Below, piece by piece: positions 1 through 11,726 of a stretch of 50,448 nucleotides of DNA. The stretch lies in NCBI GenBank assembly GCA_905234995.1, contig CAJOJV010000020.1, positions 3,859 through 54,306 of the forward strand, in the 5' to 3' direction. The notes under the pieces are model-generated. The model saw only the letters and a list, made by a program, of their open reading frames with translations, was not told the origin of the DNA and did not search any database. The DNA comes from an uncultured Eubacterium sp. (GTDB lineage: Bacteria; Bacillota; Clostridia; Oscillospirales; Acutalibacteraceae). The position numbers and the translations under genes are program-made. Position 1 is the stretch's first letter. Each line of letters starts with the position of its first letter.

Positions 1-108
1 GCGCCTACCGGCGCTTGAAGAGATTCCCGCTCTTTATCGAAAGGTGCACTGCACCTTTCTCCCAAAAACGCCTTGCGTTTTTGGAAACTCGCTTCGAATC
101 TCTTCTGT
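1..108. repeat. palindrome-rich intergenic element, cut by window edge
   Basis: No gene is seen here. The stretch is built from nested inverted repeats. GAAGAGATTC (17-26) pairs with GAATCTCTTC (96-105). Between them lie two tighter palindromes: AAAGGTGCA/TGCACCTTT (about 40-58) and CCAAAAACGC/GCGTTTTTGG (about 62-84). The 11-mer TGAAGAGATTC at 16-26 also occurs at 158-168 in the T-arm end of the adjacent tRNA gene. The style matches the palindrome arrays at 18205, 21137 and 25203. Confidence 0.6.
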
Positions 109-3974: not shown

Positions 3975-4003
3975 ATTATATAATTATAAATCCGCTTCGT
4001 CAA
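3975..4003 (-). promoter_or_regulatory. sigma-A promoter for the lipoprotein-csoR unit
   Basis: TTGACG (3998-4003) and TATAAT (3975-3980) on the minus strand with a 17-bp spacer. The -35 and part of the spacer lie inside the 3' end of the HAD-DUF523 gene. No classic G/C-tract CsoR operator is seen over it. Confidence 0.75.
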
Positions 4004-5252
4004 GCAATTTATTAATTTCGCTTTCGCCGAAAACGGATATGCCTCTTTTAAGAAGCAAATCCGCAGTTACGCCGTTGCCCTCAACGAGTCTGCCCGAAAA
4101 GCTGCCGTCATAAATTCTGCCGCAGCCGCAGGAGGGGCTGCGCTCCTTAAGCAGCGCAAGGCGGGCATTTTTCTCCTCCGCAATATAGAGCGTTTTTTCA
4201 GCGCCGCTGTGAAATTCCGCCGTAACGTCCTCGCCGTTTTTTGAGAGCACTCTATCCCCCACTATCTCGCAGGGCACGCGCGGAATGGGCAAACCGCCGA
4301 AGCTTTCCGGGCAGACGGGAATTAATTCAAAATCTTTTTCAAGTTCAAGGGCGGCATCGTTTTTATTGTTGCCGCCGTTATATTTGCAGTTTTCGCCAAG
4401 CAGGCAGGCTGAAACCAGCAGCCGCGGCTTTTTGCCGAGGGCGTATCTTTCAACCGCGCTTGCAACGCCGTCCAGCTCATTCGAGGGGGCGATATACTTT
4501 GCCTGCGCCTTGCAGATTTCATCGCCGTTTTCCATAGCAAATCCGAAGCCCACCGCCTTTATCATACCCAGATCGTTATCCGCATCGCCGAACGCCATAA
4601 CCTCATATCTGGTTATGCCGAGCTCCGCGCAGATTGCATCAATTGCAAAAACCTTATCCACGCCCTTATAGGTGATTTCAATATCGCCATCAATCGGAGA
4701 GGTGAAAAGCACGTCCGGGCACGCCTCAAAATGCCGCTTGATTTCGCCGAGATTCGGATTTCCGAAATAATAAACGTTCACCTTTTCGCAAATATTATCC
4801 TTTGCGAAACCGGCAAGGTTATCAACGAAATAGAGCTTTTTTATATAATCCTCCATAAATTCCTGCGGAAGATTAACGTTTGTGAAATACTGCTGCTTAT
4901 CGGGCTGGCTGTACTGCTTTCCGCCCGCATAAACCTCATAATAAACCTCTTTGCAATCAAGATAATCAACGATATCCGCAGCAATTTCCCGCGGTAGAGG
5001 CTTTGAATAAATCAGCCTTGCCCCATGCAAATCATAAGCCGCCGCGCCGTTTGAATAAATCACGTAATCCGCAAAGGGCAGCTGCTCAATAACGTCATAA
5101 ATCATTGAAAGCGTTCTGCCCGTTGCAATGGCGATTTTTATTCCCTTTTCGTGCGCCTCATAAAGCGCTTTTTTCGTGCGCTCTGAAACCGTTAAATGAT
5201 CGGGCGAAAGCAGGGTTCCGTCCAAATCCGAGGCAATAAGTTTTACTGACAT
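3984..5252 (-). CDS. fusion: HAD-superfamily (Cof-type) phosphatase + DUF523 domain
   Basis: The start is set at the ATG at 5252 (422 aa), which has a GGAG site 6 nt upstream; a longer frame to 5264 overlaps that site. Residues 1-270 are a Cof-type HAD hydrolase: DLDGT at 9-14 (Asp9 nucleophile, Asp11) and a GDADND motif near 225 for Mg2+ binding. From about 277 a complete DUF523 domain follows, with VSACLLGENCKYNGG, CPESFGGLPIPR and ERSPSCGCG Cys motifs. The HAD part probably dephosphorylates a small sugar phosphate or cofactor. DUF523 function is not established, and its cysteines suggest metal binding. DUF523 is normally a stand-alone protein of about 150 aa. Confidence 0.88.
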   Translation of the reverse strand: MSVKLIASDLDGTLLSPDHLTVSERTKKALYEAHEKGIKIAIATGRTLSMIYDVIEQLPFADYVIYSNGAAAYDLHGARLIYSKPLPREIAADIVDYLDCKEVYYEVYAGGKQYSQPDKQQYFTNVNLPQEFMEDYIKKLYFVDNLAGFAKDNICEKVNVYYFGNPNLGEIKRHFEACPDVLFTSPIDGDIEITYKGVDKVFAIDAICAELGITRYEVMAFGDADNDLGMIKAVGFGFAMENGDEICKAQAKYIAPSNELDGVASAVERYALGKKPRLLVSACLLGENCKYNGGNNKNDAALELEKDFELIPVCPESFGGLPIPRVPCEIVGDRVLSKNGEDVTAEFHSGAEKTLYIAEEKNARLALLKERSPSCGCGRIYDGSFSGRLVEGNGVTADLLLKRGISVFGESEINKLLDEADL

Positions 5253-5327
5253 AAATAACTCCAAATATAAATCAGGTGCGGATGTGCCGCCCTTAATTAT
5301 TCATTATTCAATCTTCCTTATCAATTC

Positions 5328-5360: not shown

Positions 5361-7161
<1,801 letters not shown>

Positions 7162-7182: not shown

Positions 7183-8070
7183 TTACTGCGTTTTGTGTTT
7201 TTGCGCCTTTGAGCCCGCAATAATCTCCGTTATTTCCTGAGTTATCGCCGCCTGCCTTGCGCGGTTATACTGCACTCTGAGCTGGCGGAGCATATCCGCA
7301 CCCGCATCCGTTGCAGTCTGCATCGCCATCATTCTGGCATTATGCTCGCTGCAATAGGATTCAATCAAAGCGCCGTAAATGAAGCCCGCAACGTAATCGG
7401 GCACTATATTATTGAAAACGGTTTGTGCATCGGGCATAAACTCTGCGTTTTCATAATAATTATTCTCATCCCTTATTTCAATATGCTCCTCTTTAAGGGG
7501 CAGGATTTTCTGCGTTCTTACCTCCGTGGTCATTGAATTAACCATATCGGTGTAAACAACATAAATCTCATCAAGCTCGCCGCTTTCAAAAAGCTTTGTG
7601 AGCCTGACCGCAATATGGCGCGCGCGGTTCATAGTGGGGTTCTGCGCCGTATATCTGAAATTAATATCAACGGGGATATTCTTTCTTTCAAAATAATGAC
7701 GCCCCACCTGGCCGACAACGAAAAGCATATTCTCCGTTTCCATTGCGGCGCTCTCTTCCGTGGCTTTAATAATATTGTGGTTATAAGAGCCTGCAAGCCC
7801 CTTATCCGCAGTTATAACAAGATAGCCCTTCCTGCGCTGCTTGCCCGTTTTTTCGGGACGCTCATCAAAAAAGACGTTGCCGACCTCGGGCGCAATATTG
7901 AGAATTTTTGCAAGACTATCCTGAATTAAATAGAAATAAGGCTCTGTGTTTTTCAAATTCCTGCGAGCCTTCTGAAGCTTTGATGAGGACACCATATACA
8001 TTGCGTTGGTAATCTTCATCGTGTCCTGAATAGACTTCATTCGGCTCTGAATTTCCCTTGCATTAGCCAT
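7183..8070 (-). CDS. atpG: ATP synthase F1 subunit gamma
   Basis: 295 aa, the rotating central shaft. The N-terminal coiled-coil helix contains [32 protein letters not shown], split by the family's conserved MVSSSK region (about residues 26-31). The C-terminal helix has [28 protein letters not shown] with the conserved N-RARQA-IT-E pattern. The middle Rossmann-like domain carries [13 protein letters not shown]. It overlaps the upstream delta-alpha gene by 8 nt, indicating translational coupling. Confidence 0.97.
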
Positions 8071-10087
8071 TATTTACCTCTTCAAACTCATCAGCTGCGC
8101 TGAGAATTCTTTCCTTGATATCATCGGAAAGCACCTTTTCGCGGTTAATATCATCGGCAATATCGGAATGATTTTCATCAATGAATTCAAGCAATCTGCC
8201 CTGATAAGCCTTAATCTCGCTGACGGGCACCTTGACGAACCTTTTTCCGATTGCACACACAAGCGTGATAACCTGATGCGAAAGAGACATCGGATTGCCG
8301 AGAGGCTGCTTAAGCAGCTCCATAAGCCCCTTTCCGTAATTGAGGTTTGCCTTCGTTTCCTCATCAAGGTCTGATGAAAACTGGGTGAAAACCTCCATTT
8401 CACGGTACTGCGCCAAATCAACGCGCAGCGAGCCCGCTGCCTTTTTCATAGCCTTCGTCTGCGCCGCGCCGCCTACACGGGATACGGATAAGCCGACGTT
8501 AACTGCGGGACGCTGACCGCTGAAGAACAAATCGCTTTCAAGGAATATCTGGCCGTCAGTGATTGAAATAACGTTCGTCGGAATATACGCCGAAACGTCG
8601 CCCGCCTGAGTTTCGATAATCGGCAGGGCGGTGATTGATCCGCCGCCGAGCTCGGGTGAAAGACGGCTTGAACGCTCAAGCAATCTTGAATGAAGATAGA
8701 AAACGTCGCCGGGATAAGCCTCACGGCCGGGTGAACGCTCAAGCAGAAGCGAAAGCGCGCGGTAAGCCACGGCGTGCTTGCTTAAATCGTCGTAAACAAT
8801 AAGGCAATCCTTGCCCTGATACATAAAGTATTCTGCAATCGCAGTTGCGGAATACGGTGAAATATACTGAAGCGACGCGGGTTCAGCAGCGGTTGAGGAA
8901 ACAACAACCGTGTAATCCATTGCGCCGTGCTTTTTAAGCGTGTTAACGAGCTTTGAAACCGTTGAGGTTTTCTGACCGATTGCGTTATAAATACAAATGC
9001 AGTCCTTACCCTTCTGGTTAAGAATAGTATCAAGCGCGATTGAGGTTTTACCCGTCTGACGGTCGCCGATAATAAGCTCACGCTGACCTCTGCCTATCGG
9101 GAACATACTGTCAATCGCAAGTATACCCGTTTCAAGCGGCTGGGAAACCGATTTCCTGTCAACAATTGACGGAGCAGGCTGCTCAACGAGGCGGTAATCA
9201 TCCGCCTGAATTTCGCCCTTGCCGTCAATAGGCTCGCCGAGCGCGTTAACGACTCTGCCGATATACGCCTCGCCGACTGGAAGACCCGCCTTTCTGTGCG
9301 TGCGTTTAACCCTTGAGCCCGCGTGAATTTCACTATCCAGACCGAAAAGGATGCAGCCGACGGTTTTGCGCTTGATATCCTGAACCATACCCTTAACGCC
9401 GCTGTCAAAAATAACGATTTCGCCGTACATAACGCTGTTAAGACCGTGAATGGTTGCAATACCGTCGCCTACTGAAATAACCGTGCCGACCTCTTCGCCC
9501 GCGGTTTCAAAATCAAAATCCTTAACGTTTGCGCGCAGAATTGAAATGATATTCTTTGCATCATCCGCCGTGGATTTTTTTGCGCTTTCAACAAGCTCTT
9601 CCTTAATCTTGCTGATTTTGGCTTTCATACTGCGGTCAATCTGCTTGCCGCCGAATTCAAGAACAAAGCCGCCGATGAGGCTTTCATCAATAACAACGTT
9701 GATTTCAGCCGAGCCTGCCTTTTCCTCTTTTATAACATAATCCTTTATGCCCTGAAGCTGCTTTTCATCGGGCTCGGTTACGCAATAAAGGGTTGCCCTT
9801 ACGACGTTATTCTGCTTATCAAGCGCTTCAAAATACGCTTCGCAAACCTCTGCAAAGCGTTCCGTTTTGCAGGTTCTTGCAAGCTCATAAACGACGCCTC
9901 TTACCGAAGCGGGAAAAAGCTCCTCGCAAACAGCCTTCTTTTCCGCATTGGAAACAGAGGGGCTTGAAAGCACATCTGCAAGCTCCTCGTTTTTAAGAGC
10001 AGCCGCAGCCTCGTCAAGCTCCTGTGCACCTGCCTTTGAATTAAGCAGTGCGTTAACCAAATCATTGAAATTATCAGTCATTATCAT
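8063..10087 (-). CDS. atpA: ATP synthase delta-alpha fusion protein (AtpH-AtpA)
   Basis: One uninterrupted frame holds two subunits. Residues 4-170 are a full delta subunit, with C-terminal signature [19 protein letters not shown]; delta binds the b stalk to the F1 head. After a linker rich in Lys, Ser and Ala (about 168-177), residues 178-674 are a full alpha subunit: [13 protein letters not shown] near 200, Walker-type GDRQTGKT near 342-349, and the [10 protein letters not shown] segment. I see no ATG, GTG or TTG in frame with a ribosome binding site at the junction, so separate alpha is not obviously made. Canonical F1 has three alpha and one delta, making this fusion puzzling. The start is taken as the ATG at 10087, overlapping atpF; a GTG at 10090 and an ATG at 10081 are alternatives. 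Confidence 0.95.
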
Positions 10088-10562
10088 CACTGCCTTCGTT
10101 TAAAAATTCATCAAGCATATTGCGGTTATCCTCTGCGCTGATATTAGCCTCAACAAGCTTTGAGGCAGCCTCTGCGGCAAGGGAGGCAATCTCCTCCTTC
10201 GCAGCGCGCAGGGAGCTTTCGCGCTCTTCCTCAATCTGCTTCTGAGCGTCAGCCTTCATCTGCTGCGAATCCTGCTGCGCTCTGTCTATAATTTTATCGT
10301 ATTCAGCCCTTGCCGACTGCCTTGCATCGCTGATAATCTGCTTTTTCTCTTCCTCAACGTTTGAGATTTTGCTTTCATAATCAGCAAGCTTTTCCTCAGC
10401 CTCGGCATTGGCCGTTTCTGCATTTCTGAACTGCTCGTCAAGCATATCCTGCCTTTTATCCAAAACCTTTTTAATCGGCTTGAAAAGAAATAGTTTCATA
10501 AGCACGAAGAAAATGATAAGGTTAAAAACAGTCCAGAGAAGATTCCAGTCAAACTTTAACAT
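10074..10562 (-). CDS. atpF: ATP synthase F0 subunit b
   Basis: 162 aa. A single N-terminal membrane helix (about 8-28, [18 protein letters not shown]) is followed by [16 protein letters not shown] and a long charged coiled coil to about residue 150. This is the peripheral stator stalk joining F0 to delta on the F1 head. It overlaps the delta-alpha gene by about 14 nt. In many bacteria delta is a separate gene here; in this operon the next product carries delta at its N-terminus, so the b-delta contact is to the fusion protein. Confidence 0.95.
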
Positions 10563-10867: not shown

Positions 10868-11668
10868 TTAAGCGGCTGCCTCAATATCGGCAGGTGCTTT
10901 TTTGAGCTTTTGCTTTTTCTGCTTTTTCGGCTTCTTTTCCTTAGGCTCGGACGGTTCAACCGCCTCTCTGATATAAAGCGAGGTCAGGAAAACGAAAACG
11001 TAAGCCTGCAAAAAGCCGTCAAACAAATCAAAATACAGGCTGAACACCATCGGAACGAATATGGGCACGACTGCCTTTAAAAGCTCCATAATGATAAACG
11101 CGCCTATGATATTACCGAAAAGTCGCATACAAAGCGAGAGGGGCTTGATAATCAGCTCAAGCAGATTAATCGGCGTTACGATTGCCACGGGCTCCGTGAA
11201 CGATTTAAGGTGCCCCTTTAAGCCCTTTGCCCTGAGCCCCGCAAACTCCGTGATAAGAATGCTCGTAGCGGCAAGCGCGGCAGTTACCTGCATACTTTTC
11301 GTCGGCGGCTTGAAGCCGAAAATGCCAATCATATTTGAAGCGCCGATAAAAATCGCCGTGCTCATCAGCCACGGGATATAGCCCTTGCCCTCCTCGCCGA
11401 GCTGCTCCTTGAAAAAGCTTTCCATCTTTGTGTAGCACATTTCAAGCAAAAGCTGGCGCTTTGTGAGCTTTCCCTCAACCTTCAGATTTCTTGTGAGCAG
11501 AAATGCAAGCAGAGTTATCACGGCAATGATAATCCAGGAAACCACGGTGCCCTCATCAAAGCCGAGGGTTACGGAGCCGATTTTGAAGCTGAATATCTCT
11601 TTAATATTAAGCTGTTCCGTAATTTCCTCCTGCAAATCAAGCTTCATCGCTATAGGAGCAAATGCCAT
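10868..11668 (-). CDS. atpB: ATP synthase F0 subunit a
   Basis: 266 aa from the ATG at 11668, seven nt after GGAGG; the ATG at 11674 abuts the binding site and is rejected. This multi-pass protein forms the ion half-channels. The essential Arg lies in PLSLCMRLFGNIIGAF (around residue 180). The C-terminal tail is an unusual Lys-rich stretch (EPKEKKPKKQKKQKLKK) followed by an acidic and Ala-rich end, longer than typical. First gene of the operon; no atpI or atpZ precedes it. Transcription starts from the promoter at 11727-11754. Confidence 0.95.
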   Translation of the reverse strand: MAFAPIAMKLDLQEEITEQLNIKEIFSFKIGSVTLGFDEGTVVSWIIIAVITLLAFLLTRNLKVEGKLTKRQLLLEMCYTKMESFFKEQLGEEGKGYIPWLMSTAIFIGASNMIGIFGFKPPTKSMQVTAALAATSILITEFAGLRAKGLKGHLKSFTEPVAIVTPINLLELIIKPLSLCMRLFGNIIGAFIIMELLKAVVPIFVPMVFSLYFDLFDGFLQAYVFVFLTSLYIREAVEPSEPKEKKPKKQKKQKLKKAPADIEAAA

Positions 11669-11726
11669 CAACATACCTCCTTACCGACGCTATTTATATA
11701 CAACAGCGCCTAATATTTCAAAGTCG

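Follow-up and report, generated by a model that had tools for sequence, protein, structure and literature searches.

In F-type ATP synthases, one delta subunit per F1 is treated as a rule that limits the enzyme to a single stalk and a single a subunit, and hence sets the proton cost of ATP. A 50,448-nucleotide stretch of DNA from an uncultured Eubacterium sp. (the window) contains a gene that raises the question of how this rule fares when every alpha subunit is made with a delta of its own. An earlier note on the window, made from its letters alone, had claimed that delta and alpha share one unbroken frame and are both complete, with alpha starting at about residue 178, and that three delta domains would thereby be placed where one fits.

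The frame is stop-free over positions 8066–10081 of the minus strand and continuous from the overlap with the b gene down to a stop codon at 8063–8065. GTG 10090, ATG 10087, and ATG 10081 are candidate starts. The third of these shares bases with the b stop codon (ATGACTGA), and the product read from it has 672 amino acids and a computed mass of 73.1 kDa. With residues numbered from one codon upstream, Pfam OSCP spans residues 20–164 (83.5 bits, cut-off 22.3), and TIGR00962 atpA spans residues 175–669 (758.8 bits, cut-off 484.45). The barrel, nucleotide-binding, and C-terminal domains of alpha are all present by Pfam and TIGR00962. The delta part consists of a six-helix N-terminal domain (NTD) and an alpha/beta C-terminal domain (CTD), as judged from the OSCP profile, AlphaFold, and a fold match; the two domains score 83.9 and 103.0 bits with NTD and CTD profiles, respectively. 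The frame, both family profiles, and AlphaFold thus bear out that two complete subunits share one frame. The two-part layout proposed earlier stands, and its boundary moves: alpha begins near residue 175 (~9559).

AlphaFold modeled the delta part alone (residues 1–174, alignment with 46 relatives) at a pLDDT of 88.1; the model contains the CTD and the six helices of the NTD. The best PDB match of this model was the delta subunit of Bacillus PS3 (6n2y_I, E 1.4e-10, TM 0.62); a TM of 0.62 across both delta domains means that the modeled fold agrees, while the placement of one domain relative to the other is not fixed. In a model of the whole fused chain (pLDDT 69.1), delta was the same as in the delta-only model, and the linker and alpha N-terminal helix were of low confidence. 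Coordinates are collected in Table 1.

Table 1. Features of the fused gene and its operon in the window; residues are those of the product from ATG 10081.
Feature	Position	Strand	Evidence
Delta (OSCP) NTD, six helices, residues 1–91	9809..10081	-	OSCP profile, AlphaFold, NTD profile
NTD helices	residues 5–15, 19–30, 32–39, 45–55, 58–69, 73–90		AlphaFold
Delta CTD, residues 92–165	9587..9808	-	OSCP profile, CTD profile, AlphaFold strands and helices 93–172
Delta-alpha linker, residues 166–174, without stop or SD-preceded internal start	9560..9586	-	Frame, start scan, low pLDDT 171–195
Alpha, residues 175–672, N-terminal helix included (NIISILR from residue 177)	8066..9559	-	TIGR00962; Pfam ATP-synt_ab_N, ATP-synt_ab, ATP-synt_ab_C
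a subunit gene	10868..11674	-	Pfam ATP-synt_A
c subunit gene, 73 aa	10605..10826	-	Pfam ATP-synt_C
b subunit gene, separate; 8-base overlap with ATG 10081	10074..10562	-	Pfam ATP-synt_B, 83.1 bits
gamma subunit gene, overlaps fusion stop	7183..8070	-	Pfam ATP-synt
beta subunit gene	5770..7161	-	Pfam ATP-synt_ab, ATP-synt_VA_C
epsilon subunit gene	5361..5777	-	Pfam ATP-synt_DE_N, ATP-synt_DE

The gene lies in an operon of the order a-c-b-[delta-alpha]-gamma-beta-epsilon, in which each subunit is matched by its own Pfam family. All subunits and their order are as in canonical bacterial F-ATPase, where atpH and atpA are separate; unlike there, no stop or start lies between delta and alpha. The genome is a 2.04 Mb draft of 74 contigs, 96.6% complete. 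A genome-wide profile search returned the fused gene as the sole OSCP match, and a redundant second delta was rejected on that ground. The two ATP-synt_ab matches are the fused alpha and beta, in a search that also picks up A/V-type enzymes (it was positive in control genomes). The fusion thus belongs to the one rotary ATPase that these searches detected in the clostridial genome. Since they turned up no further delta or alpha gene, the fused gene specifies three deltas per F1, not one. Three other genomes searched for a second delta (G145, G201, and G222) likewise gave one OSCP match each.

Loss of a stop codon through an error of assembly or sequencing, as might happen in a 74-contig draft, has a practically negligible probability. 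The same fused frame is present in relatives G337 and G351 (90 and 89% identical) and in 40 further genomes of the genus; it also occurs in isolates and in a complete genome, and for the family such an error is refuted. In a survey of the genus, 56 of 60 genomes matched, and 43 of the 60 carried a full-length fusion (two cut by a contig end), all 43 re-read from DNA. The remaining matches were one partial fusion (residues 3–523), seven fusions lacking the NTD, two genomes with separate delta and alpha (L131 and L132), and three fragments. Full-length fusions are also present in cultured Lachnospiraceae: among the best 80 of 594 relatives, to which the census of named records was confined, they occur in Pseudobutyrivibrio xylanivorans DSM 14809, 'Lactobacillus rogosae' ATCC 27753, Oribacterium parvum ACB1, and Lachnospiraceae bacterium GAM79 (complete genome); the NTD-less form is found in Butyrivibrio hungatei DSM 14810, Shuttleworthella satelles, and Absicoccus porci.

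Across the class, sampled evenly, the match table gave a stop-free fused frame of 583–691 amino acids over the junction in 35 of 391 genomes; a 36th genome, G431, has a 509-amino-acid fused frame. Within the order, a sample of 295 genomes (alpha above the cut-off in 144) yielded at least 47 fusions (4 full-length, 33 NTD-less, 9 in which b, the delta CTD, and alpha are joined, and 1 with two CTDs). Fusion forms were told apart with a home-built NTD profile (E < 0.01), which was seeded partly with the same sequences and so separates classes rather than discovers them. The NTD scored at least 59.8 bits in the 30 full-length rows listed, and in the seven NTD-less rows of the genus this profile gave no match at E 10. 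Altogether, 198 of 208 rows were distinct: 69 full-length fusions, 72 NTD-less fusions, 35 full separate deltas, 9 b-CTD-alpha fusions, 7 separate CTD-only deltas, 1 double CTD, and 5 unclassified. The fusion is real, widespread, and functional-looking. The search for delta-alpha fusions in related Clostridia that had been proposed for this locus thus finds them both within the genus and across the class; the earlier view of the fusion as real holds, while its treatment as a single oddity does not, given 35 of 391 class genomes and repeated loss of the NTD. We found no account of a natural full-length delta-alpha fusion in the literature covered, which left most subscription journals and preprints outside.

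We considered next to this the possibility that separate alpha and delta are still made, through internal initiation or linker cleavage, and that the assembled enzyme is canonical. In the 50 codons that lead up to the alpha barrel, the only in-frame ATG, GTG, or TTG in the window is an ATG inside the delta CTD, without an SD-like motif. Over the same span, a start with such a motif was found in 10 of 69 distinct full-length fusions and 14 of 72 NTD-less fusions, versus 28 of 35 separate alphas. The claim that no internal start is visible at the junction is upheld by these counts. An internal start at the junction, scanned for in the fetched fusions as ATG, GTG, or TTG plus SD-like motif, was rejected as not conserved. 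Delta starts themselves seldom carry the motif (17 of 78 rows, first 14 frame codons scanned), possibly owing to their overlap with the b stop, and a missing motif by itself is therefore weak evidence. The junction has no upstream stop for translational coupling. The linker varies in sequence and length across aligned fusions and is predicted with low confidence, which, together with the starts present in 10 of the 69, would suit separate chains; yet no conserved cleavage motif was seen by eye in the linker alignment, and if the chains were to separate, there would be little point in deleting the NTD while leaving the CTD fused. Taken together, we regard the making of separate chains as improbable. 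At another junction of these operons, gamma and beta lie in one stop-free frame of 776–795 amino acids in L069 (6417–8801, plus strand; Pfam), L072, and L085. Unlike the delta-alpha junction, these frames have a start with an SD-like motif at beta (by eye); a read-through chain would tether the rotor (gamma) to the stator (beta).

Ueno et al. (2025; PMC12229609) describe an engineered counterpart. In Bacillus PS3, one alpha meets the C-terminal region of delta and the other two meet its N-terminal region on the axis; the axial NTD is said to restrict stalks to one. When delta without its NTD was fused through the CTD to alpha, up to three stalks formed, each with an a subunit (PDB 9jc1), and the H+/ATP ratio was 5.8 versus 3.0. 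The average was two stalks, cryo-EM showed few triple-stalk particles, and pump activity was reduced. In the triple-stalk structure all three CTDs are accommodated, one per alpha, and the CTD is the part that binds the b dimer. As natural cases, the authors name Acidaminococcus fermentans, in which the NTD is missing, and UniProt G4Q3K6 and A0A1I2C5T3 only as having 'similar features' (PMC12229609).

As in the engineered delta-deltaN-alpha FoF1, the delta CTD in the window is joined to the alpha N-terminus in one chain, and a profile of full fusions aligns with 9jc1 chain I over profile positions 95 to 666. The fusion is thus a variant of a known, recently engineered kind and not a new class. 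Unlike the engineered enzyme and that of A. fermentans, the window gene keeps a complete, constrained NTD (83.9 bits and six predicted helices, where NTD absence defines delta-deltaN-alpha FoF1). The concern that three delta domains occupy the place of one applies to the NTD and falls away for the CTD, three of which fit in the engineered structure (PMC12229609).

A natural F-ATPase with two deltas already exists: PDB entries of the Chloroflexus aurantiacus enzyme (9itj series) each contain 3 alpha, 1 gamma, 2 delta, 2 a, and 4 b chains. This enzyme has multiple sets of delta, a, and b for each F1, its delta being a separate 157-residue chain; the window, unlike it, has a single fused gene and no second OSCP match in the genome. 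The Foldseek list includes two Chloroflexus delta chains with only 69–70 residues modeled and another with 147, lengths that would be compatible with order in one domain and disorder in the other, whichever these are. The mycobacterial b-delta fusion (PDB 7jg5 chain d; 40 chains in 40 entries, a single copy in each) also joins delta covalently to another stator subunit. Its partner is b and not alpha, and the window has b as a gene of its own (10074–10562), in agreement with the distinction drawn in the earlier note.

Because three CTDs are accommodated in the engineered structure, a changed stator, in our analysis, leads among the explanations that note had offered, and is unproven for the full-length form. 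The reading we favor, and consider rather probable, is a genuine translational fusion whose chain stays whole, with a CTD on each alpha and one axial NTD, the window representing an intermediate toward NTD-less multi-stalk enzymes. The fused chain would remain uncut in the assembled enzyme, and each CTD would sit on top of its own alpha, through the contact used in the engineered enzyme, able to take up a b dimer. A single NTD would occupy the central dimple on the threefold axis, leaving the other two undocked. Such an enzyme could run on one stalk with room for more, the stalk number being one to three. The covalent delta-alpha link may take over the tethering job of the NTD and make it dispensable; its repeated deletion would then give CTD-alpha enzymes, predicted to have as many as three stalks and as many a subunits, with the full-length fusion as a working intermediate on this path.

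An enzyme with a single stalk, in which one delta works and the other two are tolerated baggage of a near-neutral stop loss, is a rather unlikely but serious alternative. It finds support in the published design argument that an axial NTD permits one stalk only (PMC12229609), and, since the NTD is kept and under selection, a single-stalk enzyme fits these observations as well. The phylogeny bears on both readings. In a genus tree built on alpha plus gamma, NTD-less fusions appear at three or four places within full-length fusions, implying at least three NTD losses. With groups defined after viewing the first tree, so that p-values are optimistic, AU tests rejected one clade of all seven NTD-less members of the genus (p 8e-51) and the joining of L124/125 with L128–130 (p 3.7e-7), and kept L126 together with L127 (p 0.49), possibly one loss. 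A short piece of the NTD start apparently survives in L124, L125, and L128 (by eye), as expected from in-frame deletions. That the NTD was removed repeatedly while the CTD stayed is unexpected for mere baggage, and so is the occurrence of the fusion across many genera. On the other side, separate genes recur within the genus: L131 and L132 are nested in the fused clade (AU p 0.032, borderline), where the genes were probably split again after fusion, and a separate-gene species within a fused clade suggests that fusion is reversible, perhaps nearly neutral.

A wider tree of 166 rows (quick search, LG+G4, 51 of 162 inner branches open) contained 14 maximal NTD-less clades, 12 of them CTD-alpha fusions when L126 and L127 are counted as two. 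One of the 12 comprises 45 rows, including the double-CTD row and one row without a recognised delta; the two clades outside the 12 are one of 10 rows, mostly separate CTD-only deltas, and the b-CTD-alpha clade. Sister rows are exclusively fused for 10 of the 12 CTD-alpha clades, those of L067 and L039 being mixed (fused and separate). Since an NTD once lost is unlikely to return, the full-length fusion would have come before loss of the NTD in these lineages. L167, a full-length fusion, is surrounded by Mediterraneibacter relatives with separate genes, so the fusion probably arose more than once. The NTD has also been lost without fusion: separate delta frames of 73–78 amino acids, CTD only, stand beside a normal alpha in L080–L084, L088, and L089.

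Constraint on the NTD was compared in pairs hand-picked from near relatives, some sharing members: the median dN ratio of NTD to CTD was 1.17 in 19 fused pairs versus 1.25 in 15 separate pairs, and that of NTD to alpha was 4.1 versus 4.8 in the same sets. Decay of the NTD in fusions, for which faster change is expected, was rejected because these ratios do not show it. Where kept, the NTD appears from dN to be under selection with about the same constraint as in separate deltas, a result that also suits idle deltas. A constrained NTD is presumably doing something, at least folding.

Returning to the whole-chain fusion as a step toward multi-stalk enzymes, we advance a broader claim with more reserve, as somewhat less likely to be right than wrong: that Clostridia evolved multi-stalk, multi-a F-type ATP synthases by delta-alpha fusion, that stalk number and H+/ATP vary within a genus as the NTD is kept or deleted, and that two undocked NTDs in full-length enzymes are no bar to extra stalks. 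With each alpha made with its own delta, natural enzymes with several outer stalks are plausible. Close relatives form a natural series of separate genes, full fusions, and NTD-less fusions, with b-CTD-alpha fusions in other lineages of the order. This series breaks the gene-dosage side of the one-delta rule and makes stalk number testable without engineering, with relatives as controls. If NTD-less or full fusions carry extra a subunits, ATP synthesis may be possible at lower driving force, which, if true, would suit fermenters living on a weak Rnf-generated gradient. RnfC was above its cut-off in 16 of 16 genomes tested, covering all three states, and an ion gradient for ATP synthesis is thus probably available in them. 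In three genomes of the genus (G320:C36, G323:C8, and G325:C7), rnfC lies ~4.6–4.8 kb from the atpA match.

Several related forms were encountered. In L050 (4065–6371, minus strand), L046 (3957–6209, plus strand), and L054 (3776–5989, minus strand), one frame combines an N-terminus that resembles b and includes a membrane segment (by eye), a delta CTD, and alpha. Such triple fusions also occur in L045, L053, L057, L059, L061, and L065, with frames of 737–784 amino acids across all nine, and a separate b gene adjoins them. Of the three tested with Pfam ATP-synt_B, L050 and L046 scored above the cut-off and L054 below. If uncut, this chain would give three covalent membrane anchors per F1, which would imply three stalks. 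Absence of epsilon from this lineage was considered and rejected, a short epsilon being present in nine of nine genomes; its frames have 86–131 amino acids compared with 139 for the window genome, and in G091 the match contains a TGA. The C-terminal helical domain of epsilon is probably missing there, as in the engineered enzyme. At least six order genomes with a CTD-alpha or b-CTD-alpha fusion (G091, G178, G229, G251, G273, and G293) also hold a separate delta; their fused atp set and separate delta/alpha set amount to two F-ATPases per cell.

Other arrangements were also seen. L044 (5044–7062, plus strand) has two tandem delta CTDs, seen as two OSCP stretches, fused to alpha; L085 (5715–6431, minus strand) has b fused to a delta CTD in 239 amino acids, with alpha separate; and L090 (5402–6184, minus strand) has a 261-amino-acid delta frame, a complete delta followed by a second OSCP stretch. 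In the window, just downstream of the operon (3984–5264, minus strand), a HAD-type hydrolase and a 2-thiouracil desulfurase domain (PF04463) share one 426-amino-acid frame. A change in the c-ring was rejected as a correlate, since the c subunit of the window, at 73 amino acids, is ordinary and c extensions elsewhere could not be linked to stalk number. At least two c-like frames are present in the operons of L035, L223, L225, and L234. A signal-peptide-like N-terminal extension precedes the c hairpin (by eye) in many NTD-less fusion operons, among them L037, L039, L041, L044, L056, L058, L217, and L222; in L037 the ATP-synt_C match begins at residue 76.
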